A stretch of DNA of 64,000 nt from Synechococcus sp. PCC 7502 (GTDB lineage Bacteria > Cyanobacteriota > Cyanobacteriia > Pseudanabaenales > Pseudanabaenaceae), in contig NC_019702.1 in the NCBI RefSeq assembly GCF_000317085.1, positions 774,394 through 838,393 on the forward strand. Direction: 5' to 3'. Numbering within the stretch: the stretch's first letter is position 1; the number at the start of each line of letters is the position of its first letter. Positions 43,920 to 60,184 of the stretch are shown here, one piece after another. The notes beneath the pieces are model-generated. The model saw only the letters and a program-made list of their open reading frames with translations. It was not told the origin of the DNA and searched no databases. Both the position numbers and the translations under genes were made by a program.

Positions 43920-44468
43920 TTAGTCTAAGCCGTTAACACCAGCACCAGCTTTGATGATCGCAGAGATGAAGTCGATGTTTGCAGAAGCATAGGTTGTACC
44001 AGCAGCAGTCCCGTTACCAGTAGTTCTACCATTATCAACCAGAAAAGTAGTACCCTGAGCAATTGCAGCAGCAGCATCGGTTAAGACTCTAGCAGCGGCT
44101 TGATTGAAGGATGCAGGGAAAGTAGTTGGAGCAACAGCACCACTGGAAGCAACTTGCAAGGACTCAGCAGCAACTGAGAAACCTTGTAAGGAGAATTGAG
44201 GAAGAACGATCACATCGGGGGTAGCCAAAGAAGCCTTGGCACCAAATGGGTTTGCCGCTGTAGGGTTAGTAGAACCAGTCAAGACAGAACCAGCTGTACC
44301 GAATTGAAATCCAGAAGCAAGAACAGACTCGCCACTTGTGGTGGAAGTAAAACCAGCAGGGGAAATAAAGGTGGCAGAGCCAGAAATAGAACCGGGGGTA
44401 CCAGCAAAGGCAGGTGCGGCAAAGGCACTAGCGATTACGGTGACAAGACCTAAAGTTGATAGACGCAT
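43920..44468 (-). CDS. Secreted paralogue B (182 aa) with C-terminal AGAGVNGLD motif
   Basis: 182 residues starting MRLSTLGLVTVIASAFAAPA, a signal peptide cleaved near AFAG. Shared blocks: SGSATFISPAGFTSTTSGES, PQFSLQGFSVAAESLQV, ASFNQAAARVL, and the end FISAIIKAGAGVNGLD. It is closest to the next gene upstream, and even the leader AGAGAATCTCC just upstream of the two start codons is conserved, which indicates a recent tandem duplication. Confidence 0.7.
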   Translation of the reverse strand: MRLSTLGLVTVIASAFAAPAFAGTPGSISGSATFISPAGFTSTTSGESVLASGFQFGTAGSVLTGSTNPTAANPFGAKASLATPDVIVLPQFSLQGFSVAAESLQVASSGAVAPTTFPASFNQAAARVLTDAAAAIAQGTTFLVDNGRTTGNGTAAGTTYASANIDFISAIIKAGAGVNGLD

Positions 44469-44542
44469 TAGAGAATCTCCAAAAAATGTAATTAAGTTAG
44501 TTGAATTAAGGCATCATCACTCAATGGATGAAAAAGCGGAAA

Positions 44543-45193
44543 TTAGTCTAAGCCGTTTACACCAGCGCCAGCTTTGATGATGGCAGAAATGAAGTCGATG
44601 TTGCCAGAAGCATATACTGTACCTGTAACAGAACCACCAACTACTACGTTTCCACTACTATCAAGACGAACAGTTCTACCATTAGCAGCCAAGATAGCAA
44701 GATCACCAGCAGAACCATCTCCAGCAGTTGCTCGAGCAGCATTAGCCAAAACAATAGCAGCAGCTTGATTAAAGGATGCAGGAGTAACTGTTGCAGTAGG
44801 AGCGACACTAGAACCTATTGATAATGATTCAGCAGCGATCGAGAATCCTTGTAAGCTGAATTGAGGTAACACGTTCACTGCAGAACCATCGGTAGCAGGA
44901 AGAGTAGCACCAGCATCAGGATTGGTTAAAGATGCCTTAGTACTAAATGTGGGAGTAGCCCCACCAGCAACAGCAATAGAATTAGTGACTGTACCAGAAC
45001 CATACAATGTGGCTCCTAGGGTATTATAAATCAGTCCAGAAGGAAGAACTGATTCACCACTTACGGTAGAGGTAAACCCAGCAGGGGAAATAAAGGTGGT
45101 AGAACCAGAAATGGAAGCAGGTGTTCCAGCAAAGGCAGGAGCAGCAAAGACACTTGCGATTAGGGTAATTAAGCCTAGATTTGATAGACGCAT
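44543..45193 (-). CDS. Secreted paralogue A (216 aa) with C-terminal AGAGVNGLD motif
   Basis: 216 residues, first gene of the cluster. The signal peptide MRLSNLGLITLIASVFAAPA is nearly identical to that of paralogue B. Shared blocks are GFTSTVSGESVLPSG, PQFSLQGFSIAAESLSIGS and the end IDFISAIIKAGAGVNGLD. About 35 extra residues in the middle (Gly/Ala/Thr-rich) account for the length difference. Low-complexity and lacking cysteine, it looks like a secreted structural or surface protein. Upstream lie over 300 bp of AT-rich DNA with the likely promoter. Confidence 0.7.
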   Translation of the reverse strand: MRLSNLGLITLIASVFAAPAFAGTPASISGSTTFISPAGFTSTVSGESVLPSGLIYNTLGATLYGSGTVTNSIAVAGGATPTFSTKASLTNPDAGATLPATDGSAVNVLPQFSLQGFSIAAESLSIGSSVAPTATVTPASFNQAAAIVLANAARATAGDGSAGDLAILAANGRTVRLDSSGNVVVGGSVTGTVYASGNIDFISAIIKAGAGVNGLD

Positions 45194-49248: not shown

Positions 49249-49645
49249 AGTTATTTATTTAAGTCCAGTCTTGGCGGTCTAGTCAGTTATGATCTATTTT
49301 AACCTATGTGCTACCCCCCCCGCCTTGAATCAAGATAAACCATGGCTATAATTCTTAGCTGATTGGTACTATATTTTGTCCCCTTTTCTTGTAAAAAATC
49401 CAACAATTATCCACAATGCTCCAATAGCAGCGAGCACATATATACCCTTGTACCTGAACCATCACAGTAAATTATCAAAGAAATTATCAAGTACTTTAAA
49501 TGCCCATGCGCCTAACTACGAATAGACTGATCACTGCGGCAATGGTATAAGTATTTCCCTTGATTTCATAAATTAGATATTTGCAGATAATTTACGAATT
49601 GACTATATTTCCAATTCCCAAAAGATTCTTAAACAGAGTTTTAAA
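49249..49645. other. Intergenic region between gyrA and the integrated element
   Basis: 397 bp of chromosomal sequence, AT-rich apart from a run of eight Cs at about 49313-49320. It should contain the gyrA promoter. No gene is seen. The integration site begins directly after it. Confidence 0.4.
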
Positions 49646-49703
49646 ATGGGGGAAGAGGGACTTGAACCCTCACGACTTATAAGGTCAACGGATTTTAAGT
49701 CCG
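49646..49703. repeat. attL: left 58-bp direct repeat (tRNA-Leu 3' fragment)
   Basis: Identical over 58 bp to 60100-60157. It carries the 3' part of tRNA-Leu from the anticodon stem to the acceptor end and lacks the 5' part, so it is not a tRNA gene. It is the original chromosomal 3' end displaced by integration. Confidence 0.92.
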
Positions 49704-49812: not shown

Positions 49813-50118
49813 ATGACAGCAATCACACTATCTACAGACATCCCATCAAACATCACAACACTTGAGCAGCTCCATGTCTGGACATCGGTAGCTTTAGCAA
49901 CCTGCAACCCAACAAAGCAGATAGTCGAGTCAGAAAATAGTACCGAATTTACTTGTCGATATTTTGTTGCACTTGCCTATGACGCAACTACTAGGTGTGT
50001 TGATCGAATAAGCATCCCTATCGATCCGACTTATGTATCAGACAAGAGTAAAAAATTCTGGATGTTTGCCAATCCTATTTCAGATACTGCCTTACCATCA
50101 ACTTTCAAAGCTAACTAG
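49813..50118 (+). CDS. Hypothetical protein, first gene of the unknown block
   Basis: 101 residues, from an ATG with AAAGG 13 bp upstream. The product is beta-prone with three cysteines (TCNPTK, FTCRYFVAL, RCVDRISIPI) and no TM. The stop TAG abuts the ATG of the next gene (TAGATG), so the two are translationally coupled. I recognise no family. Its place at the head of a block ending in lysis genes suggests a structural or virion role, which is inference only. Confidence 0.55.
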   Translation: MTAITLSTDIPSNITTLEQLHVWTSVALATCNPTKQIVESENSTEFTCRYFVALAYDATTRCVDRISIPIDPTYVSDKSKKFWMFANPISDTALPSTFKAN

Positions 50119-52164
50119 ATGTTTGCAGCCCCTGCACTGCCATTAGTTCCACCCGTGCCGGTTGTGCCAACGCCGACGGCACCAAATTCTAATTATTCTT
50201 TGCCAGATTTACCACCAATCCCAGCCCCTAATATCCCCGGTCTATCTAACTTAACCAGTGGCACTCAAAAGCTATTAGATTCTTTATTTGGGACACCGCC
50301 GGCGGCAGCCCCAACATTGCCAAGAGACTTTAAGGATCGGAAGTTTATAAGTCCTGCTCCTGCAACCCCTGATAGTTTAGGAAAATTACCATTTAGAGGC
50401 GGTCAAAGTGTAGGCGTTAACTACACTGTAAATTACAGTTATATATATACTCGCCCCGGTATTAACCCTCAAAGTGGGAGTACTGCAGTAGTTGTAGTAG
50501 GTCCACTAAGCGCATTTGAAGTTATTGACGGACCGCCTGACTCATCCCAAATCTCACTAAAAGTAGTTGATAGGGATGGCACAAGATATTTTCTGACTAG
50601 GACTGGTAAAGCAGTTGATCCAGCAATTACACTAACCGTTACGATAATTAGTATTACCAGAAATGATAACCAACCTGATACAGGGGGGAATCCGCCTGCT
50701 GTTGGTGGTAATCCTGCTGGTGTAGGTAATCAATTAACACCACCACAGGTTTATGGTTTTGGTCCGACTACAGCCCCGCCAGTTCCAAAGACAGCCCCTA
50801 AAAGGAAACCACCCATAACACCAAGACCTGATGAGAAACCAGACGAAAGAATAAAGCCATTCCCACGCCCCGGCACACCTAACGAAAAACCTAAAAATCC
50901 ACCTGCTAAACCAGAAACACCAAAAGAACCACCAGCTAAACCGGGAGAGAAACCGGGGACACCTAAAGCTCCACCTTTAGACCCACCAACATTACCCCCT
51001 GTTAGCCCACCTAAGCCAGATACAACACCTAAACGAGAAACACCGTCTAAACCTGCTGACGACCCAAATACTAAACCAGATGCACCAACCAAGCCACTAG
51101 ATAACCCTAAGATAGATCGTCCTGAGACTCCAAATCAAAGACCCGATCCTGTTAGGATTCCTCCATTAATTCCTTCTCAGACTCCCCAAGAGCCGCAGCA
51201 AGACCAAGAAAAAGAGAAGGTAGGAATTCCACCTGCTTTACCAACTCCACCCACAATTACCCCGGGTACAAACCAACCAACTCCACCAACAATTATCTCA
51301 CCTCCACAATTACCACCGGGTAGTAATCCACCGGGGTCTAGTAATGGTGGTCAAATCACTACAGGTAATCAAAATTCTGGAAATAACAACAATAATTCTA
51401 ATAATGGCAGTGGTCCAGGGATTGATGAAGTTAGCCAACAAATTAAGGATTTAGACCGCAAAATTGGCTCACTCACGGGTAATAACGTCACCAACATCAC
51501 TAATATCAATAATCAAGGCATGACCTGCCAAGAGCTTAAAGATTGCCTATCTGGTAATACAGAGACTGCCAACATCAAGAAGTTCAAACAATGTAACTTA
51601 ACCACTGGGGAACCTGAGTTTGAGACTGTGCAGATACAGGTTAACAAGGGTGATAAGGCTGCTATTGAAGCTATTGCGGAAAGATTAGCTAATGTTGAAG
51701 GTCAACAATGTAAAGAGTGTGATGCTGTTGCACTAGTTCCTGAATGGTGGCAAGTCAGAACAGGTCAAAGACCACAATTAGTTGTGAGGTTTCAAAATAT
51801 TAAAGAGGATGGGACTATTGGTGATTCCAAATGGTCATTATCTATTCCACATTACAACAGAGATCAAAATTTTAAACCTAGGTTTCCTAATTATAAAAAA
51901 GGTGATATTCAAGGAATATTAGTACTTGATGATAATAGTAAGGTTATTGTTAATTGCTTTAATATAACTGAAGCAAAAAGGGTAATAGCGGCTATAAAAC
52001 AATATATTGATCCAAACTTTTTAAAAAATAGTTATGAAAAGTATGGTGAGAGAAAAGGTAACGCATTTAGTCAAGTTCAAGTTAAAGCTATATTTGCAAA
52101 ATATTTCCCAGATGGACAAAAAAATACTACTCCTGAATGGACTATAAAGTTGGTTGGAGATTAA
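50119..52164 (+). CDS. Proline-rich, multi-domain protein (681 aa), candidate adsorption/virion protein
   Basis: 681 residues in three parts. An N-terminal region (1-190) has Pro-rich segments and a beta domain (GVNYTVNYSYIYTRPG onward). A very Pro/Lys-rich linker (about 200-420) is followed by an Asn/Ser/Gly stretch. The Cys-containing C-terminal part (about 430-681) has a coiled-coil segment SQQIKDLDRKIGSL, CxxC-like QQCKECD and a compact domain with LVPEWWQVRTGQRPQLVV and SLSIPHYNR. No signal peptide or TM. The domain-linker-domain plan resembles surface-attachment proteins of phages (inference); no family recognised. Confidence 0.6.
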   Translation: MFAAPALPLVPPVPVVPTPTAPNSNYSLPDLPPIPAPNIPGLSNLTSGTQKLLDSLFGTPPAAAPTLPRDFKDRKFISPAPATPDSLGKLPFRGGQSVGVNYTVNYSYIYTRPGINPQSGSTAVVVVGPLSAFEVIDGPPDSSQISLKVVDRDGTRYFLTRTGKAVDPAITLTVTIISITRNDNQPDTGGNPPAVGGNPAGVGNQLTPPQVYGFGPTTAPPVPKTAPKRKPPITPRPDEKPDERIKPFPRPGTPNEKPKNPPAKPETPKEPPAKPGEKPGTPKAPPLDPPTLPPVSPPKPDTTPKRETPSKPADDPNTKPDAPTKPLDNPKIDRPETPNQRPDPVRIPPLIPSQTPQEPQQDQEKEKVGIPPALPTPPTITPGTNQPTPPTIISPPQLPPGSNPPGSSNGGQITTGNQNSGNNNNNSNNGSGPGIDEVSQQIKDLDRKIGSLTGNNVTNITNINNQGMTCQELKDCLSGNTETANIKKFKQCNLTTGEPEFETVQIQVNKGDKAAIEAIAERLANVEGQQCKECDAVALVPEWWQVRTGQRPQLVVRFQNIKEDGTIGDSKWSLSIPHYNRDQNFKPRFPNYKKGDIQGILVLDDNSKVIVNCFNITEAKRVIAAIKQYIDPNFLKNSYEKYGERKGNAFSQVQVKAIFAKYFPDGQKNTTPEWTIKLVGD

Positions 52165-52239
52165 CCACGAACTGAACTTACTTGTCTTTAACTATTAGAA
52201 AACATAGGCTTTAGATGTTCACTCACACATGAAAATCTA

Positions 52240-52749
52240 ATGTCAACATTTACCCCCGGAACTGGTGGAACTTTAGAATCTACTAATTTACCATCTGCTT
52301 TTCTTGAAGTATCAAGAGTTCTAGTTCAAGCCGAAAATACCCGTAATGCTGCTAACTCTGGCGTAGCTCCTATTAACAACATCACTGCTAGTTTAAGTAT
52401 TGATGGTGGAGTTGCTTCCATAGCCGCTACTATTCCTATTGCTCCAACTTTATCTACCAGTGGAGTCCCAACAATTGCCGCTCAAAATTATCTCGGTTCA
52501 ACTTACACAACTTTTGCTCCCGGTACAGGTGGAACTCTTAAAAGCACTAATACCATTGCCGCATTTTTAGAAACTGCTCAATTATTAGCCAGTGCAGAAA
52601 AAGCAGTAACCCCTGTGGAAAATCAGCCTAACAACATCCAAATTACCTATGATTTGGAAGCTTCTCAAGCTACTATTTCCGCTAATTTACCTTTTAGTTC
52701 CACATCTGTTAGCGGTGATATTACTATTGAAGCTCTCGACTACTTGTAA
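52240..52749 (+). CDS. Duplicated-repeat protein (169 aa), candidate structural protein
   Basis: 169 residues consisting of two tandem copies of about 82 residues. STFTPGTGGTLESTN near the start matches TTFAPGTGGTLKSTN at about 89-103, and QNYL at about 81-84 matches the terminal LDYL. Each unit has a helical segment rich in Ala (LEVSRVLVQAEN, LETAQLLASAEK) followed by alternating beta residues ending in AATIPI or SANLPF. No Cys, no TM. This suggests a multimeric building block. Family unknown to me. Confidence 0.6.
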   Translation: MSTFTPGTGGTLESTNLPSAFLEVSRVLVQAENTRNAANSGVAPINNITASLSIDGGVASIAATIPIAPTLSTSGVPTIAAQNYLGSTYTTFAPGTGGTLKSTNTIAAFLETAQLLASAEKAVTPVENQPNNIQITYDLEASQATISANLPFSSTSVSGDITIEALDYL

Positions 52750-52805
52750 ACCTAATTTCAGGAATTTAATTAACTCAAATTAGCAAAAAATAAGTAGGTG
52801 AAATT

Positions 52806-53228
52806 ATGGCAACAACAACTAAAAGAGCAAAGGTTGGACCTAGAGCATCGGTTGTAATTGGCACTGTTAAAAAGACCATTGGCGGTAAATCTAAAACCGT
52901 TAAATTGGTTAGTTACATGGCTAAATCTACTGCTGATTTCTTTGGATTCAAGACGGAAGCGGTAAAGAGTACGGCGACTAAAAGCGCAGGTGGTAAGACC
53001 GTAGCTCCACGTTTAATTCGTGGCTCTATCGGTGCTGGATCGATCAAGGTTCCAGCAGGCAAAACTAGCGCAGCTAAGGGTGGTGTGCAAAAATTTAAGC
53101 AGATTCCTATCCCTAGCGGTGCTACTAATGTCCAGATTGAGGCATTTCTCAAGACTGCCACTAAAAACAAGCCTACAAGCTTTGTTTCGAGGGATGGTAG
53201 GACTTATGCAGTAAGCGGTACTAAATAG
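52806..53228 (+). CDS. Basic protein (140 aa), candidate nucleic-acid-binding or capsid component
   Basis: 140 residues with high Lys content (more than 25 Lys) and few acidic residues, giving a very basic protein. The N-terminus TTTKRAKVGPRASVVIGTVK and repeated Lys-Ser/Thr-Ala patterns precede a small domain with PSGATNVQIEAFLKTATKN and VSRDGRTYAVSG. A putative ribosome-binding site AAGTAGGTG lies upstream. The stop overlaps the next start. Basic small proteins in this position often bind DNA in virions; the assignment is inference. Confidence 0.55.
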   Translation: MATTTKRAKVGPRASVVIGTVKKTIGGKSKTVKLVSYMAKSTADFFGFKTEAVKSTATKSAGGKTVAPRLIRGSIGAGSIKVPAGKTSAAKGGVQKFKQIPIPSGATNVQIEAFLKTATKNKPTSFVSRDGRTYAVSGTK

Positions 53229-53530
53229 TGTTTATCTATAGGCAAAGTTTCACTAGGCTTGATTCTTTGCCTATTTATATTCCTGTTTTAATCGACAGCG
53301 ATCGCATTGTTTTTGGCATTGAAGTAGAAAATCAGCTACGAACATGGAACCGTGCGGGTACTTTAACCAGAAAGGTTTTATTAGATGGGATTGGTTTTGC
53401 TGTCGAAGAGCCTAAAACCTTAGCGATCGCTAAAAATATTTTAGAGTTCCAACCAGAGGGTAACTATCGGCTCGAATTTACCCCTTTTAAGTGGATTCAA
53501 AATTACACCATATCAATCTGGAAGTTATGA
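53228..53530 (+). CDS. Hypothetical protein (100 aa)
   Basis: Begins at a GTG that shares its first base with the preceding stop (TAGTG). The 100-residue product is beta-rich and slightly acidic (LPIYIPVLIDSDRIVFGIEV, LEFQPEGNYRLEFTPF). No TM and no recognised family. It overlaps the following gene by four bases (ATGA). Because of coupling on both sides it is surely part of the block; the function is unknown. Confidence 0.55.
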   Translation: MFIYRQSFTRLDSLPIYIPVLIDSDRIVFGIEVENQLRTWNRAGTLTRKVLLDGIGFAVEEPKTLAIAKNILEFQPEGNYRLEFTPFKWIQNYTISIWKL

Positions 53531-53775
53531 CAAGTTCCCAAATCCCAGAACCACAAAATTCTAAAGCTATTCAGTTCCATCAAATCGCTAATATCATCTT
53601 AACTGTGATTTTGGGAGGTGCTATAACATCATGTGCATCATTCATAATTCAGACAAATAACTCTCTGATTTTGCTATCGGAAAAGATGCAAGTTTTATCA
53701 AGTGTGACATCTAAACTATCGGATAAGATAGATAAATTTGATGATAGGTTGAGAACTCAGGAGATGAGAAAATAG
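53527..53775 (+). CDS. Small single-TM protein with coiled coil, holin/spanin-like
   Basis: I place the start at the ATG at 53527, overlapping the previous stop as ATGA; a GTG 36 bases earlier is in frame but less likely. The 82-residue product has a cytoplasmic N-terminus, one TM (IANIILTVILGGAITSCASF, about 20-39) and a coiled-coil tail (LLSEKMQVLSSVTSKLSDKI). This topology directly before the endolysin gene is what one expects of a holin or membrane-linked lysis helper. Identity is inferred from position. Confidence 0.6.
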   Translation: MTSSQIPEPQNSKAIQFHQIANIILTVILGGAITSCASFIIQTNNSLILLSEKMQVLSSVTSKLSDKIDKFDDRLRTQEMRK

Positions 53776-53777
53776 TT

Positions 53778-54407
53778 ATGATTAATCTTTTAGACGTAGT
53801 TAAATACTTTAAGTCACAATCTCATCAAATAAAGGCTTTGCAGATTCTCAATAACAAGATTGCGAGTTCTTATCCTGAACTATTAGATGATTCTCAAGAA
53901 TGGGTAAAGGAATGGAGAAGTGTTAATAATTTCTCTTTGACTGATTCAAAAAGCGAAGGTATCAATTCTAATCTTAAAGCTTTCCTTTTAGCGATAAGAG
54001 TACATGAGGGAACTAGTGGAAGTGATGGGTATAATTTGATTTTTACGGGTAAATATCTTTCTGATTTTTCCGATCATCCCAGACAAGAATATTGTGCTGG
54101 GGATTTATGCAGTGATGCTGCTGGGGCATACCAATTTCTAAGCACTACATGGGATGTGGTCAAAAAAAGGTTAAACCTTAGAGATTTTTCACCACAAAAC
54201 CAAGACCTTGGGGCAATTGAGTTAATTAAAATGCGGGGTGCTTATGATTTTGTGATCAAGGGTGATTTACCCAATGCGTGCGATCGCTGTTCTTGGGAAT
54301 GGGCAAGTATGCCAGATCGTAATGGTAATGGCAGATATGGACAACCTAACTGTAGCTTTGCTGAGTTTAGGAAATTGTTTATAAAATATGGTGGTAAGCC
54401 TTTATGA
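53778..54407 (+). CDS. GH104 (lambda R-type) endolysin
   Basis: 209 residues. From about residue 70 it follows phage lambda R lytic transglycosylase: LAIRVHEGTSGSDGYNLIF with catalytic Glu77, then FSDFSDHPR-like DFSDHPRQEY, AGAYQFLSTTWD (115-126), LRDFSPQNQDLGAIELI and the C-terminal DRCSWEWASMP. It cleaves the peptidoglycan glycan strand. The N-terminal about 65 residues are an unrelated helical extension. No signal peptide, so a holin is needed. It starts 2 bp after the TM protein and overlaps the next gene by 4 bp. Confidence 0.88.
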   Translation: MINLLDVVKYFKSQSHQIKALQILNNKIASSYPELLDDSQEWVKEWRSVNNFSLTDSKSEGINSNLKAFLLAIRVHEGTSGSDGYNLIFTGKYLSDFSDHPRQEYCAGDLCSDAAGAYQFLSTTWDVVKKRLNLRDFSPQNQDLGAIELIKMRGAYDFVIKGDLPNACDRCSWEWASMPDRNGNGRYGQPNCSFAEFRKLFIKYGGKPL

Positions 54408-54565
54408 ATTCCCGTATGCCAGTAATTTTAAGCTTGGCTGTTTGTACTTTCTGCTTAGTTATGATTGCAAGTGGTAAAAATGAGGCTCAATATTGGAGTA
54501 CAGTTACAGGAATTTTAGGTTATTGGATGCCTCAACCTTTAGCAAATACACCTAAAAGGGATTAA
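54404..54565 (+). CDS. Small membrane protein (53 aa), holin candidate
   Basis: ATG at 54404 overlaps the endolysin stop (ATGA). The 53-residue product has a TM at about 5-22 (MPVILSLAVCTFCLVMIAS) and a second short hydrophobic stretch (TVTGILGYWMPQP). Two hydrophobic segments in a very small protein next to an endolysin fit a class II-like holin. The stop overlaps by three bases the end of the CAP-domain gene on the other strand. It was too short for simple ORF thresholds but is well supported by coupling. Confidence 0.7.
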   Translation: MNSRMPVILSLAVCTFCLVMIASGKNEAQYWSTVTGILGYWMPQPLANTPKRD

Positions 54566-55167
54566 TTATTCTGACAGTCGCCCTGAATCCTGTCTTTTGA
54601 GCTTGTGATAAATGCACATACTGAACCATGACAGCCAATAGCCCCAGTAACGTGATATTCCCTAAGAATATAATCTTTCATTGAATATCTGGGATTATTA
54701 ACATAACTTTCAAAGACTTGCTGCAAAGACATTCCATATCCTTTAGCCATACCACCGCCCCCGAAGGGATAATAGTATGACATTGTTGTTTCAAAAACCT
54801 GCTCATCTTCATTAAAGCCAAATTGCTTTTTTAGGGTTATTGCACATATCCCAGTTTTAGGATTTGTATCTGCTATGTAGCCCTCGGTGTCCATATCTTT
54901 TGCACGAGCAACTGCAAGACTATATGCTCTGTCATCCCACATAATGGGTTTTAATCCTTTTTTGGCTCTCAGAGAGTTTATATATTCCATGTTTTTATCT
55001 GATTCTTGCCAAGAACTAAAGATATAAGCTCCATCAGGTCGATAGTCATAAGCAGTAGTTCTATTGGGAATAGACTGCATATAAGCTGCACATCCAAGTC
55101 CCAAAAAAATAAACCCAAAAGCTAATTTCTTTTGAGTATTTGTACTAATTCTGTCTTTTATTCTCAT
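54562..55167 (-). CDS. Membrane-anchored CAP/SCP-like domain protein
   Basis: 201 residues with an N-terminal TM anchor (LAFGFIFLGLGCAAYMQS, about 15-32). The mature domain resembles the CAP/SCP fold of cyanobacterial and phage secreted proteins: NSLRAKKGLKPIMWDDRAY, then LAVARAKDMDTEGYIADTNPK, with conserved Cys pairs near the end (IGCHGSVCAF). Transcribed opposite to the lysis block and in the same direction as the repressor, so it may be expressed in the lysogen. A moron/cargo role in altering the host surface is plausible but unproven. Confidence 0.65.
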   Translation of the reverse strand: MRIKDRISTNTQKKLAFGFIFLGLGCAAYMQSIPNRTTAYDYRPDGAYIFSSWQESDKNMEYINSLRAKKGLKPIMWDDRAYSLAVARAKDMDTEGYIADTNPKTGICAITLKKQFGFNEDEQVFETTMSYYYPFGGGGMAKGYGMSLQQVFESYVNNPRYSMKDYILREYHVTGAIGCHGSVCAFITSSKDRIQGDCQNN

Positions 55168-55169
55168 CT

Positions 55170-55526
55170 TTACCCCACGCTTTCTGCGATCGCATACAAT
55201 CTATCAGAAACAGCCCGACCTAATAAAGCTAAATCCTTTGCAGGCATATATCTCACCTCTGCAACAAGTCTTTCTACAGATATATTGGAATCTCTTTGAC
55301 TATCTTTAGAGTTTCCTTCAAGGTAATCCATTAATTCAGTAAGTGTATAACCGCCCTCACTAGCTATTTTAGAAAGGTTCCCAGACCCCGGGGTTACTTC
55401 TCCATTTTCCCAAGATTGAATAGCACCATGAGTTACCCCCAAACGCTTAGCAAATTCTTTTTGAGTTTGATTACCCCTTAGTTGCTTTACTAAGTTCGCA
55501 AGTTTTAATTTTGACGAGTGGTTCAT
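55170..55526 (-). CDS. Xre/Cro-C1 family repressor
   Basis: I place the start at the ATG at 55526 (NHSSKLKLANLVKQLRG). An upstream extension is open but runs through the operator and promoter DNA. The 118-residue product has the HTH_3 domain QTQKEFAKRLGVTHGAIQSW, ENGEVTPGSGNLSKI (about residues 20-55) and a C-terminal helical part. It ends 2 bp before the CAP-domain gene and is divergent from the CopG-like gene across a 16-bp palindrome, the classical lysogeny-control layout. Confidence 0.82.
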   Translation of the reverse strand: MNHSSKLKLANLVKQLRGNQTQKEFAKRLGVTHGAIQSWENGEVTPGSGNLSKIASEGGYTLTELMDYLEGNSKDSQRDSNISVERLVAEVRYMPAKDLALLGRAVSDRLYAIAESVG

Positions 55527-55657
55527 AGGTATCCACAAATACACATAAACATATATATGTTTTACCACATTTACACATATCTGTATTTGCGAAATTCTGT
55601 ATTGACACATTTATGTATATGCGTTAATAAATATATATCAGTCTAAGAAATATATTT
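55527..55657. promoter_or_regulatory. Divergent lysogeny control region
   Basis: 131 bp between the repressor and the rightward genes. It has a perfect 16-bp palindrome AAACATATATATGTTT at 55547-55562, and a good rightward promoter: TTGACA (55602-55607), 17-bp spacer, TAATAA (55625-55630). Further imperfect ACAYATNTRTGT-like copies lie between (around 55569-55582 and 55605-55622). The palindrome is about 20 bp from the repressor start, where autorepression would act. Confidence 0.65.
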
Positions 55658-56422: not shown

Positions 56423-58705
56423 ATGTTCAAAATTACAGACCATATCGAATTTGACCCCAAGGGCAGAGCATCATGCCCAGTATGTGAAGCAAAGAAAGGT
56501 AAACCAAATAAAAATCTTGCATTGATACCTAATAGTGATGGTGCTTATAAATGCCACAACACATCATGTACTACAGATCTGATTAGAGAGGCAATAGGAC
56601 AACCTAAAGACCAGATTATTCCCAGTGCGATCGCTAAGGCTAAACCAATCAAATACCATGATCAAGAACGCATAGATATAAACAATGAAAAGCTGTTTAA
56701 CGATTCAAAAATAGCTAAAAAGTGGCTCACAGATAGAGGTATTAGCTTATATCTCATACAAAAATTCAAATTAGGCATTGCACTCAGAGAAATCAAAAAA
56801 TATGAACAAGGTAAGTTAGTTGAGAGTAAAGCTTTACCCTGTATCACAGTTCCCTATCAGTACCCAGAAGGATACTTACAGAAATACTTTGTAGCTCCTT
56901 GGCTAACCAGTGAAGAACGATTAGATACCAGAATGATTCAAGATAGTGGGCTTGCTGCTAGATGGTGGTTTACCCAAAAATCAGACTCTAAAGAGGTTTG
57001 GATCTGTGAAGGTGAATGGGATGCAATGTTGATGTCTGAAATTATTAATTGTTCTGAAATTGCTGATTGTGATGTGGCAACCTCAACGGCTGGATCGGGC
57101 AATGTTCCCCAAGACCTTAGACCTCTTGACCAATACGATCACATATTTATCTGGTATGACCTCGATCCTGCTGGAGAGGCTGGAGCCGAAAAATTAGCAA
57201 AAGCAATTGGTAATAGAGCTAAAATTGCCACGGTTCCATATACGGTAGACGCTAAGTTAGGCTGGGATATTAGCGATGCAATAGTTAATGGCTTTAGTTA
57301 CTCTGATTTTGCCAAGGCTAGGGATAATGCTAAGTGTGTTGAAATTCAACCAACGCCAGGAAAGAATAAATTAGCAGATAGACTAATAACCACTGCCGAA
57401 CTAATGGCACGGGCAAAGGATTATACCGATTGGCTGATTGATGAAATATTACCCATCAATGAACTAATACTTTTAGCAGCTTCACCAAGAGCGGGTAAAT
57501 CTTTGATGGCAATGAATATTGCTCAGTGTGTGGCAAGTGGAACTAATTTTTTAGATCGGCCCGTAACACAAGGTTCAGTAATCTATGTCCAGTGTGAGGA
57601 CTCAGAAACTAAGACGAAACAGAGAGCGATCGCCCAAGGTTGGGATGAGAATCTCCCAGTTTACTGGTTAGAAAAATTCAAAATGTCCGAGCTCGCTGAA
57701 CTAATCGAACTGGCAAGAAAGATCGAGCCAAGACTAATCGTATTAGATACTTTGTCCAGGGTGCGTGATGATAACACCACAGAGTCAAGCGCAGAGATGT
57801 CTAGAATTTTGGAACCACTCCAAGAATTTGCCCGTGATCACAATTGCTGTATCCTACCAATTCACCACACAGGCAAAATTAAATTAGAAAATGCCGATGC
57901 CTTAGATGTTTTTGACACTATTAGGGGTAGCAGTGCCATCCGTGCTACTTGCCGTGGAACCTTAGTAATTGCGGCAAATGATCAGGGTTATCGTCTCTGT
58001 GTCGAAAACGGGTATAACAAGCAAGACTTAAAAGTTAGCCTAGACCTAAACTCTCTCACATGGAAACTTTTAGGTAAATGGGGCGTACAAGCTGATGCCT
58101 CCCAATCTGATCAGATATTGGGATTTTTAACAAAAGTACAGTCTGCAACCCTTGAACAACTGTATGAATTTACCAACATAAATAAAGCAAGTTTGTACAA
58201 GGTACTCTCTAGGCTTGTTCATGATAATAGAATCTCCAAAACTGGCTCTAGGAAAGCAGTTGTGTATTCAAAACTGCAAATCGAGCAGCCTAAAACCCAA
58301 TCTGACATATCAGACATGTCAGATACGTTGTCAGATTCCGAAATCCAGACAGAGACAAGCTTAGAGGTGTTATCTGACAAAAATAATATTTTATATATAT
58401 CTGACAACATGGTTAGTAATTTATCAACACATATATCTAACACAGGTGAAGCAAATTTGTCAGATTGTCAGATAAGTACCTCAAATCAAGACACAGCAGG
58501 CGATACCGAATCTGACAAGCAATCTGACAAACCCGTTTTTGTCAGATACAAAGTAGGTTGTCAGGTTGAAATCTTGACTGGTAGGTTCGCTGGCATGAAG
58601 GCTGAAGTCATTGATATACAAGGCGATGAGGTTGAGGTTAAGGCTAAAAAATGGGTGGTTACTCGTTGCTATCCAACTATGTCGTTAAAACTACTTGTCA
58701 GATAA
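56423..58705 (+). CDS. Primase-helicase replication protein (zinc ribbon, TOPRIM, RecA-like helicase, KOW-like tail)
   Basis: 760 residues: zinc ribbon (C18, C21, C44, C49), TOPRIM primase core (EGEWDA at 196-201, DLDPAGE at 246-252), RecA-like ATPase with Walker A SPRAGKS (354-360), Walker B IVLDT (439-443) and HHTGK sensor (481-485), then a winged-helix-like segment (about 550-600). A Ser/Asp-rich linker (about 610-700) encodes the iterons, and the last about 45 residues resemble a KOW domain (GRFAGMKAEV). It should prime and unwind DNA for replication, in the manner of satellite and plasmid primase-helicases. I could not assign it to a named subfamily. Confidence 0.85.
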   Translation: MFKITDHIEFDPKGRASCPVCEAKKGKPNKNLALIPNSDGAYKCHNTSCTTDLIREAIGQPKDQIIPSAIAKAKPIKYHDQERIDINNEKLFNDSKIAKKWLTDRGISLYLIQKFKLGIALREIKKYEQGKLVESKALPCITVPYQYPEGYLQKYFVAPWLTSEERLDTRMIQDSGLAARWWFTQKSDSKEVWICEGEWDAMLMSEIINCSEIADCDVATSTAGSGNVPQDLRPLDQYDHIFIWYDLDPAGEAGAEKLAKAIGNRAKIATVPYTVDAKLGWDISDAIVNGFSYSDFAKARDNAKCVEIQPTPGKNKLADRLITTAELMARAKDYTDWLIDEILPINELILLAASPRAGKSLMAMNIAQCVASGTNFLDRPVTQGSVIYVQCEDSETKTKQRAIAQGWDENLPVYWLEKFKMSELAELIELARKIEPRLIVLDTLSRVRDDNTTESSAEMSRILEPLQEFARDHNCCILPIHHTGKIKLENADALDVFDTIRGSSAIRATCRGTLVIAANDQGYRLCVENGYNKQDLKVSLDLNSLTWKLLGKWGVQADASQSDQILGFLTKVQSATLEQLYEFTNINKASLYKVLSRLVHDNRISKTGSRKAVVYSKLQIEQPKTQSDISDMSDTLSDSEIQTETSLEVLSDKNNILYISDNMVSNLSTHISNTGEANLSDCQISTSNQDTAGDTESDKQSDKPVFVRYKVGCQVEILTGRFAGMKAEVIDIQGDEVEVKAKKWVVTRCYPTMSLKLLVR

Positions 58706-58724: not shown

Positions 58725-58925
58725 GAAATTTTAACCACCAAGGAAATGGCAAGTAAACTCAAGGTTTCTACCGATCATTTACTTGATTTATGCAAAGATG
58801 GCACTCTACAGCCCCAAATTCACTTTATTGACATCAGGAAACAAAGTAGTTCTAAACCCTGCTATAGATTCAAAATGCAAGCCTGTTTAGAGCGTTTTGC
58901 TATCCCTGCTGATGTTCGGAGCTAG
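58716..58925 (+). CDS. Excisionase/AlpA-like helix-turn-helix protein
   Basis: 69 residues from the ATG at 58716 with AAGGA upstream; the frame also opens at a TTG seven codons earlier. The pattern ILTTKEMASKLKVSTDHLLD followed by LCKDGTLQPQIHFIDIR resembles the MerR-like/HTH_17 fold of excisionases. Its 3' end overlaps the end of the integrase gene on the opposite strand by 39 bp. Placement beside the integrase supports a recombination-directionality role. Two iterons overlap its start. Confidence 0.65.
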   Translation: MSDEILTTKEMASKLKVSTDHLLDLCKDGTLQPQIHFIDIRKQSSSKPCYRFKMQACLERFAIPADVRS

Positions 58926-60038
58926 TGGGCGATCGCTTCGATTCATCAACAGATCGTAAGCTTTTTGATGATGGCGATCGCTAATCCAATGATGATATTG
59001 CTCTGAGTGTACCTGTACTGAATGTCCCATTTGTTGAGCAGCTAGGCTAATATCCAGTCCAAACTCTAAAGTCCTAATAGCCCAACAGTGCCGTAGGTCA
59101 TAGGGTTTAAAGCTAAGTTCATATCTTGAAAATGCCTTAGTAACTCTGCTACCTAACTCTGTATTATTTTTGCCTGTTACCACTGGGAGTTTAATATTTT
59201 GCAAATCAAAATCTACTGCCCATTCAGGGTAACAAGCCCATACCCTACGGCGATCAGTTTTAGTCCCATCTGTAATTGTGGCGATCGGGAAGTCTGCAAA
59301 GTCTAAGTAAAATATTTCGTGAGGTCTTAACCCGTATGTTGCCAGTACACCATATACCCATTGCCATTGTGGATTTTTAATTTTATAAAAGGTTTCGGCA
59401 ATCAAGCGATCGTCTGGTAAGTTTCTGGGTGTTGCTCGCTTGGGGGAGTAGTTGCCGCTAAGTTGGGATAAGTCAATATCGATGTGAGCAAACTTAGCTA
59501 AGGCTCCTAGAGCCATGCAATATCGCTTTCTAGTTCTGGTATCTGGGGTAGTTGTAAGAACCAAGTTCTTAATTATCTCTGCATTAAGGGCTTGATTTGG
59601 CAGATGTTTAAATACTTCTAGGTAATCTTTTGCCCATGTAGTTTCAGATTTTGGTGATCGCTGTCTGCGAGTGAAATAATCTTGCTCAAATTTTGTTACC
59701 CAGTCTTTCCCAAGTTCAGTATTTATAGCCTGTTTTAGGTAAGGTTCCCAAGAAAATTGCTCTAGGTCTAATAATGCCCCTATCTTTCTTGCCTGTGCCT
59801 CAGCAGTAGATACACCAGCCCCGTTAGCATGAACCCCAAGAGCTAATTTTTGTTGATGTTGTTGTTTTATTTTTGAAGTTGGCTTAGGCGGGAAAGTTGC
59901 CTGTAAATATAGCCTATTTCCTTTCAATATGATTGATACGCCGACTTTTGCCGCTTTTAATCTGCCATTTGCCTGTGAAATTTTACCCTCAATCACGGTT
60001 CTTAAATTTTGCCTTAAAAAAATAGCGGTATATACCAA
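58887..60038 (-). CDS. int: Tyrosine recombinase (integrase)
   Basis: 383 residues from a TTG at 60038; a GTG at 59996 (residue 15) is an equally plausible start and fits the family N-terminus. Catalytic residues: Arg238 in GLRPHEI, Arg316 in YDLRHCWA, His339 in MGHS and the nucleophile Tyr348 in SEQYHHW. The first position of the HxxR box is Tyr313. N-terminal residues 15-60 form an arm-binding-type domain. It lies against attR, in the usual position for a tRNA-targeting integrase. It should insert and, with the adjacent small HTH protein, excise the element. Confidence 0.93.
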   Translation of the reverse strand: MVYTAIFLRQNLRTVIEGKISQANGRLKAAKVGVSIILKGNRLYLQATFPPKPTSKIKQQHQQKLALGVHANGAGVSTAEAQARKIGALLDLEQFSWEPYLKQAINTELGKDWVTKFEQDYFTRRQRSPKSETTWAKDYLEVFKHLPNQALNAEIIKNLVLTTTPDTRTRKRYCMALGALAKFAHIDIDLSQLSGNYSPKRATPRNLPDDRLIAETFYKIKNPQWQWVYGVLATYGLRPHEIFYLDFADFPIATITDGTKTDRRRVWACYPEWAVDFDLQNIKLPVVTGKNNTELGSRVTKAFSRYELSFKPYDLRHCWAIRTLEFGLDISLAAQQMGHSVQVHSEQYHHWISDRHHQKAYDLLMNRSDRPLAPNISRDSKTL

Positions 60039-60069: not shown

Positions 60070-60099
60070 ATCAAGATATTGGATTTACTGGATTTTAAG

Positions 60100-60157
60100 A
60101 TGGGGGAAGAGGGACTTGAACCCTCACGACTTATAAGGTCAACGGATTTTAAGTCCG
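60100..60157. repeat. attR: right 58-bp direct repeat
   Basis: Identical to attL at 49646-49703. It supplies the 3' part of the tRNA-Leu gene, so the tRNA remains functional after integration. Confidence 0.92.
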
Positions 60158-60184
60158 CAGCGTCTACCATTCCGCCACTCCCCC
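60101..60184 (-). tRNA. tRNA-Leu (anticodon UAA), intronless
   Basis: 84 nt on the minus strand, acceptor stem GGGGGAG/TTCCCCC with discriminator A. The T arm has GAGGG-TTCAAGT-CCCTC, and a long variable arm (class II) is present. The anticodon loop CTTAAAA gives anticodon UAA. In many cyanobacteria this tRNA carries a group I intron after U34, but here the loop is uninterrupted. CCA is not encoded. The 3' 57 nt belong to the attR repeat. Confidence 0.93.

Follow-up and report, generated by a model that had tools for sequence, protein, structure and literature searches.

Analysis of a 64,000-nt stretch of the genome of Synechococcus sp. PCC 7502 (contig NC_019702.1, positions 774,394 to 838,393; hereafter the window) revealed an integrated element with a block of five genes at 49813-53530. 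We propose, with moderate confidence, that these five genes form the particle-and-fibre operon of a complete temperate virus-like element of 10.45 kb, which would belong to a family spread across the cyanobacteria. The family appears to share no recognisable particle gene with known phages, and the element may be an unrecognised kind of bacterial virus. No published description of the family was found in the literature searched.

The element is bounded by a direct repeat of 65 nt, 98% identical, whose copies lie at 49639-49703 (attL, carrying the 3' part of tRNA-Leu) and 60093-60157 (attR, overlapping the intact tRNA-Leu gene at 60101-60184 on the minus strand), with a repeat-to-repeat distance of 10,454 bp. 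Starting at the tRNA gene, the order is integrase, primase-helicase, XRE repressor with a CAP-domain protein, the five-gene block, and a lysozyme with two small membrane proteins. The tyrosine integrase (58887-60038, minus strand) matches phrog_1 (E 4.7e-17), and the primase-helicase (56423-58705, plus strand; phrog_239, E 2.4e-40; Pfam AAA_25) is the sole open reading frame (ORF) of the element with a Walker A motif. The XRE/RstR-like repressor (55170-55610, minus strand) matches an NCBIfam RstR subfamily with an E of 2.6e-8, under the family cut-off, and has homologues in the relatives. A clean empty site was not obtained, as a genome of the same genus aligns on the tRNA-Leu side and has the gyrA side on another contig. 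In its layout, this tRNA-borne element of 10.5 kb looks like a complete small dormant virus or a virus satellite.

The first-pass annotation, made from the window's letters, had described the block as five coupled genes of unknown function in a virion-gene position, and all five ORFs are where it placed them, on the plus strand: p101 (101 aa, 49813-50118), p681 (681 aa, 50119-52164), p169 (169 aa, 52240-52749), p140 (140 aa, 52806-53228) and p100 (100 aa, 53228-53530). The junctions TAGATG (p101/p681), TAGTG (p140/p100) and ATGA (p100 and the next membrane gene) are present, with p101 and p681 abutting, p140 and p100 overlapping by 1 base, and p100 and the membrane gene by 4 bases; abutment or overlap was claimed for most of the genes, but is found at just two of the four internal junctions, the gaps being 75 nt between p681 and p169 and 56 nt between p169 and p140. 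The endolysin said to end the block exists (53778-54407, plus strand), although one gene beyond it. This enzyme is of the lambda-lysozyme type (phrog_90, E 6.4e-35; PDB entries 1am7 and 3d3d, which we take to be lysozymes of lambda, E ~5e-26). The intervening gene encodes an 82-aa membrane protein in a holin- or spanin-like position (53527-53775, plus strand; hydropathy peak 2.31); it begins at 53527 and not at the GTG of the first ORF listing, and the longer GTG-start ORF has a weak PHROG match to an Rz-like spanin (E 0.03). A 53-aa one-helix membrane protein, a possible holin (54404-54565, plus strand; hydropathy peak 2.33), follows the lysozyme. The virion-gene-like position is supported by this setting, in which the block stands within a phage-like integrated element upstream of lysis-type genes, and by the conservation of the module in relatives that also carry tail-fibre-type proteins.

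For none of the block proteins did Pfam or NCBIfam give a significant match, and PHROG gave no informative one. Profile searches of PDB sequences returned only matches with E above 0.05. The earlier remark that they resemble no known phage family holds for these databases and, for p169 and p681, also for 50,697 phage records.

The protein p169 behaves like a repeated structural subunit and is our candidate for the coat or shell. It is acidic (pI, isoelectric point, 4.05) and consists of a tandem duplicate of a helix-plus-three-strand unit, both copies of which appear in its structure model (predicted local distance difference test score 74, predicted template modelling score 0.73). The internal duplication noticed at first was confirmed by comparing half-against-half profiles (hhalign probability 99.7, E 2.9e-25). 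The halves are true duplicates, and other elements encode single-unit homologues of ~80 aa, so that a fused dimer is a possible reading of p169. Fold searches with the model (PDB, BFVD, VIA-align) remained at noise level (best Foldseek E 0.27 and 0.033, best Z 3.5), a result that does not prove a new fold. The neighbouring p140 is very basic, as had been stated, with a pI of 11.1 and 27 K+R versus 4 D+E, and is a candidate nucleic-acid-binding coat partner. This pairing of charges recurs, p169 having a pI of 4.05-4.93 in all six cases tested and the adjacent basic protein one of 9.36-11.10 in all 15. Among the compared proteins, p169 was the most conserved in six of the seven rows against the window, and p140 led in the seventh. 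The small p101, first in the block and acidic (pI 5.15), has relatives at the equivalent place in other elements. The idea that p101, the p109 family, p169 and the basic proteins form a single paralogous coat family was rejected, as hhalign supports no cross-family pair except basic_p101/basic_228 (probability 63.7).

The simplest reading of p681 from its sequence is an elongated attachment fibre. The protein is Pro-rich (16% Pro) and modular, as first described, with an N-terminal part that includes a conserved region at about residues 90-190 (low-confidence model), a Pro-rich rod, and a conserved globular C-terminal domain at residues 479-681, the latter, of about 200 aa, being the only well-modelled part. 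A set of 14 homologues that includes the window's protein shows conservation of the last 200 residues, and the variation falls mostly in the rod, which is collagen-like in four (up to 318 residues of GXY) and Pro/Gly-rich or, by our own reading, a coiled coil in others. With its variable rod and conserved C-terminal domain, p681 behaves like an elongated attachment protein with a fixed end domain. The four collagen-like homologues are also the ones with a hydrophobic stretch above 2.0 on the Kyte-Doolittle scale, up to 2.58, and the window's p681 has none (1.24). The fold search, for which only the C-terminal domain was usable, stayed at noise level (best E 0.86, Z 4.0) and does not prove a new fold. 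Domains related to p100 stand before or within fibre-type proteins of other elements, which suggests that p100 is a candidate fibre-base domain. The roles of attachment protein, structural subunit and DNA-binding component initially suggested for p681, p169 and p140 agree with how these proteins look; p169 is not universal among the places with a p681 domain.

Relatives of the module, which consists of p681, small partner proteins (p169 and a basic protein) and p100, are widespread in Cyanobacteria. In a search at the protein level, 11 of 145 relatives had p169. Profile searches of 388 genomes of the class were positive for p169 in 36 and for the p681 C-terminal domain in 43, and all three counts include the genome of the window. 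The hosts include named strains of Anabaena, Nostoc and Pseudanabaena, which makes the family open to experiment. With neighbouring matches merged and a distance limit of 10 kb, a p681-domain match lay near 26 of 45 p169 places, and p169 lay near 24 of 35 strong p681-domain places. Open frames of ~480-550 aa account for many of the weakest matches to the p681 domain, and mapping of such elements uncovered a second lineage in which p681 is replaced by two proteins (~490-810 and 470-550 aa). This split form was also mapped at several of the 19 p169 places with no domain match (G107, G204, G262, G284 and G305).

Among 113 proteins from ten loci, matches to endolysin, Amidase_3, tail-fibre, Phage tail repeat and malectin families were each found in one member, and 41 further proteins of relatives gave a Phage tail repeat match and several tail-fibre and minor-tail family matches. 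One of the 113 proteins matched a terminase-small-subunit family (E 1.1e-6), and no large subunit was among the matches listed; terminase small subunits are helix-turn-helix proteins. These tables hold the best 25 of 55 and the best 25 of 36 families for the 113 proteins, and the best 25 of 52 and all 11 for the 41, so that lower families could be missed, and some of the loci include neighbouring chromosomal genes.

Evidence for mobility comes from the genome G305, in which an 18,288-nt contig is 100% identical to a chromosomal element that has a 50-nt repeat at both ends overlapping tRNA-Cys. The contig traverses this repeat once, as would be expected if the excised circle had been sequenced along with the integrated copy. 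The complete G305 element has minor-tail and tail-fibre family matches; its Walker A ORFs are a 764-aa primase and one 94-aa ORF, and no capsid, portal or large terminase was found among all 15 Pfam families and the best 25 of 67 PHROG families. Another relative, L035 (13,471 nt), has identical 46-nt ends that we read as the 3' part of a tRNA gene, and is consistent with a complete element, with no proof of a circle. In the mapped stretches of four Pseudanabaenaceae elements (G017, G024, G025 and G036), no homologue of the window integrase was detected, and end repeats, sought in two of the four, were short or imperfect only.

The relatives displayed several other arrangements. In G017 (L016/L027) and G036 (L018/L029), two different family elements seem to be fused, one inverted relative to the other, at their primase ends, and a related protein of 102/115 aa closes each side. 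A head-to-tail array with a ~985-bp unit of three small ORFs lies beside a second integrase gene copy in G332 (L052 1-4478). A partial module with a short integrase, small proteins and genes for 215 and 795 aa (L041 8161-12758) is found inside the 178-kb plasmid CP150887.1, which has a relaxase and MPF_T typing. FHA-domain proteins recur beside the block (L058 505-1119, L052 10257-10859, L056 10740-11333 and L014 13103-13879), three of the four having a Pro-rich linker and a C-terminal hydrophobic segment. Domains like those of the cyclic-oligonucleotide-based antiphage signalling system (CBASS), namely SAVED and a DncV-like nucleotidyltransferase, were each present in one of the 113 proteins in or next to the relatives.

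The markers of known virus classes were not found in the window element. No family match to a large terminase was obtained, and no Pfam, PHROG or NCBIfam match to an HK97-fold major capsid protein or a portal. The double-jelly-roll capsid likewise gave no family match, p681 being the sole unassigned ORF of at least 170 aa, and a fold search alone would not decide this point. There was no match to the pI-like ATPase of filamentous phages (Tubulavirales) and no second Walker A ORF, and sheath, tube, baseplate and hub families were not matched in Pfam or PHROG. The ORFs of at least 170 aa are only p681, the lysozyme, the CAP protein, the primase-helicase and the integrase. HK97 and double-jelly-roll capsid proteins, portals and large terminases exceed 170 aa, and for this reason none of them should be hidden among the small genes. 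Since the other ORFs of this size are assigned, a self-made shell would have to be built from a small unannotated protein (p169, p140, p101 or p100 first) or from p681. The features by which the known kinds of prophage are defined were sought in the window element and none was found, which speaks for a new kind of element; if it is a satellite, it would be a novel form of a known kind.

In the cycle that we propose, release of the repressor would be followed by excision of a circle by the integrase and its replication by the primase-helicase. The acidic p169 and the basic p140 would coat the DNA by co-assembly, without a packaging motor, the small membrane proteins and the lysozyme would lyse the host, and p681, as an elongated fibre, would attach the particle to the next cell together with p100. 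A bolder version, which we put forward tentatively and at less than even chances, is a new realm-level lineage of temperate viruses, so far in cyanobacteria only, with no known capsid fold and no packaging motor. The acidic helix-beta p169 and basic partners would cover 10-18 kb of DNA, possibly in a rod of genome-set length, and the fibre would be Pro-rich, collagen-like or coiled-coil.

Several observations weigh against a self-made particle. No lysin was found in the complete G305 element (within the same family tables as above), and no packaging ATPase in the window element, whose only Walker A ORF is the primase-helicase. In the close pairs, compared without the window, p169 tops conservation in only two of seven rows. 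Moreover, p140 is equated with the basic proteins of other lineages by position and charge only, and in hhalign the p140 set showed no homology to either of the two other basic-protein sets. At 11 of the 35 strong p681-domain places p169 is absent within 10 kb, and the mapped elements L053 and L057 lack it, with two small basic proteins in its place. Finally, p169 and the tested p681 types are without a relative in the phage records, and six pattern scans of the viral contigs of IMG/VR gave no match. This viral-contig collection is built from predictions, and for this reason absence from IMG/VR fits a virus overlooked by hallmark-based mining; it equally fits an element that is never packaged.

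A phage satellite would integrate, replicate and lyse alone but use a tailed helper's head for packaging, and the block would provide its own adsorption parts that re-dress or re-target the stolen particle. This is, in our view, the chief alternative, real but less likely. A satellite would have no structural genes of its own; on this point, the relatives show fibre-type proteins and the element an unassigned, structural-looking module that may be part of a particle. That the window element matches no terminase, portal or capsid family favours a satellite, as does the VapE-like primase of L058, a complete relative, since VapE-like primases occur in satellites and plasmids. The window element has the satellite traits of 7-20 kb size, attachment (att) sites, integrase, regulator and replication genes; the family, at 10-18 kb with tRNA att sites, integrase, XRE regulator and primase-helicase, resembles satellites similar to phage-inducible chromosomal islands as far as the consulted part of their description goes (PMC13376191). 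What argues against a satellite is that no resident tailed helper was seen. The window's genome has no match to phrog_2 or PF03237 (Terminase_6N), and G305, whose separate contig is present regardless, has none to Terminase_6N and one weak match to phrog_2 (E 2.2e-4, in an open frame of 720 aa), leaving no convincing terminase in either. Among 23 genomes tested that have p169 or p681-domain matches, Terminase_6N was found in six and phrog_2 (E 1.5e-13 or better) in eight, and from this minority it follows that a resident tailed helper is not the rule. In addition, the absence of phage-record relatives of p169 and the tested p681 types would be unusual for parts that fit a tailed helper, and a conserved fibre- and coat-like module with its own lysozyme goes beyond satellites as we know them. 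The evidence fits both readings, and we weigh an own particle above a satellite because the tested module proteins have no relative in the 50,697 phage records and resident terminases are mostly absent.

Three further explanations appear much less probable. A headless tail-like or injection device, serving a satellite or used as a weapon, with p169 as tube subunit and p681 or its split forms as tape measure or needle, would fit the long heptad-like repeats and hydrophobic segments of the split forms, the fibre proteins in relatives, and a weak tape-measure PHROG match of a 305-aa protein of L014 (E 0.024). We regard it as very unlikely, given the missing sheath, tube, baseplate and hub families, the noise-level Z of 2.0-2.7 in the VIA-align matches of p169 to baseplate or neck/tail chains, and the collagen-like and Pro-rich rods, which suit an external fibre better than an internal tape. 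The odds are slimmer still for a pleomorphic enveloped virus of plasmavirus type, in which p140 and p169 would form a DNA-protein core inside a vesicle studded with p681 spikes. The temperate Plasmaviridae, with ~12 kb of double-stranded DNA, are like our element in genome size, tRNA integration, the lack of a regular capsid and in sharing only the integrase with other viruses (PMC12662186), and the strongly hydrophobic stretches of four of the 14 p681 homologues (up to 2.58) would suit a spike. However, the window's p681 lacks such a stretch, and the lysozyme in the operon points to lysis, whereas plasmaviruses bud without lysis from wall-less hosts (PMC12662186). We give hardly any credence to a non-viral integrative element that puts adhesins or other proteins on display at the cell surface. 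The Pro-rich and collagen-like proteins and the CAP-domain protein agree with it, but no signal peptide is visible by eye at the starts of p681, p169, p140 and p100, no relaxase or conjugation family was matched by the window proteins scanned (Pfam, PHROG, NCBIfam), and the operon holds a lysozyme. Predicted structures resembling adhesins or conjugation proteins had been named at the outset as the result that would speak against virion roles, and this result was not seen. Neither of the usable models, one of p169 and one of the C-terminal domain of p681, matches an adhesin fold or anything else above noise.

Beyond the block, the CAP/SCP-domain protein adjoining the repressor (54562-55167, minus strand; PF00188, E 7.5e-7) is cargo with an N-terminal hydrophobic stretch and has a homologue in the G019 element (L023 2092-2802); it is possibly a lysogenic-conversion or exclusion factor. 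Outside the element, at 43920-45193 (minus strand), there are two tandem paralogous secreted-looking proteins of 182 and 216 aa with nearly identical starts.

Comparison with known systems places the family apart from the small prophages described so far. The small tailless (corticovirus-like) and filamentous prophages of Vibrio share a size of 6-15 kb, site-specific integration and accessory genes with it, but are defined, in the part of the study consulted, by a double-jelly-roll capsid or a pI-like ATPase (PMC11630473), neither of which was found here. The same part of that study gives terminase, HK97 or double-jelly-roll capsid genes, or a pI-like ATPase, as prophage curation markers (PMC11630473). 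A mobile family that lacks all of these markers, occurs in about a tenth of the cyanobacterial genomes analysed (36 and 43 of 388) and was not found in the phage records and viral-contig scans used here would mark a gap in the view of viromics. It could also provide a capsid architecture or a satellite strategy unlike any seen so far. The 20.8-kb plasmid pMIC7113.08 of Allocoleopsis franciscana PCC 7113, whose name was not found in the literature searched, resembles the element in having a p169 homologue, split p681-type proteins, a malectin-domain protein and a short integrase; it differs in being larger and recorded as a plasmid, and most of its block genes carry a hypothetical annotation. 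Virus-like elements that lack hallmarks are an acknowledged puzzle, as illustrated by the Charybdis elements, small, circular, sometimes tRNA-adjacent, with no virus hallmark proteins and of unsettled virus or satellite status in the available text of the preprint (PMC12324425). They are similar to our family in their putative structural module and receptor-binding-like proteins, and their description in that text (~4.6 kb, an archaeal host, a double-Greek-key Gp3) sets them apart from elements of 10-18 kb that carry a lysozyme and a primase-helicase and reside in cultured cyanobacteria (PMC12324425).

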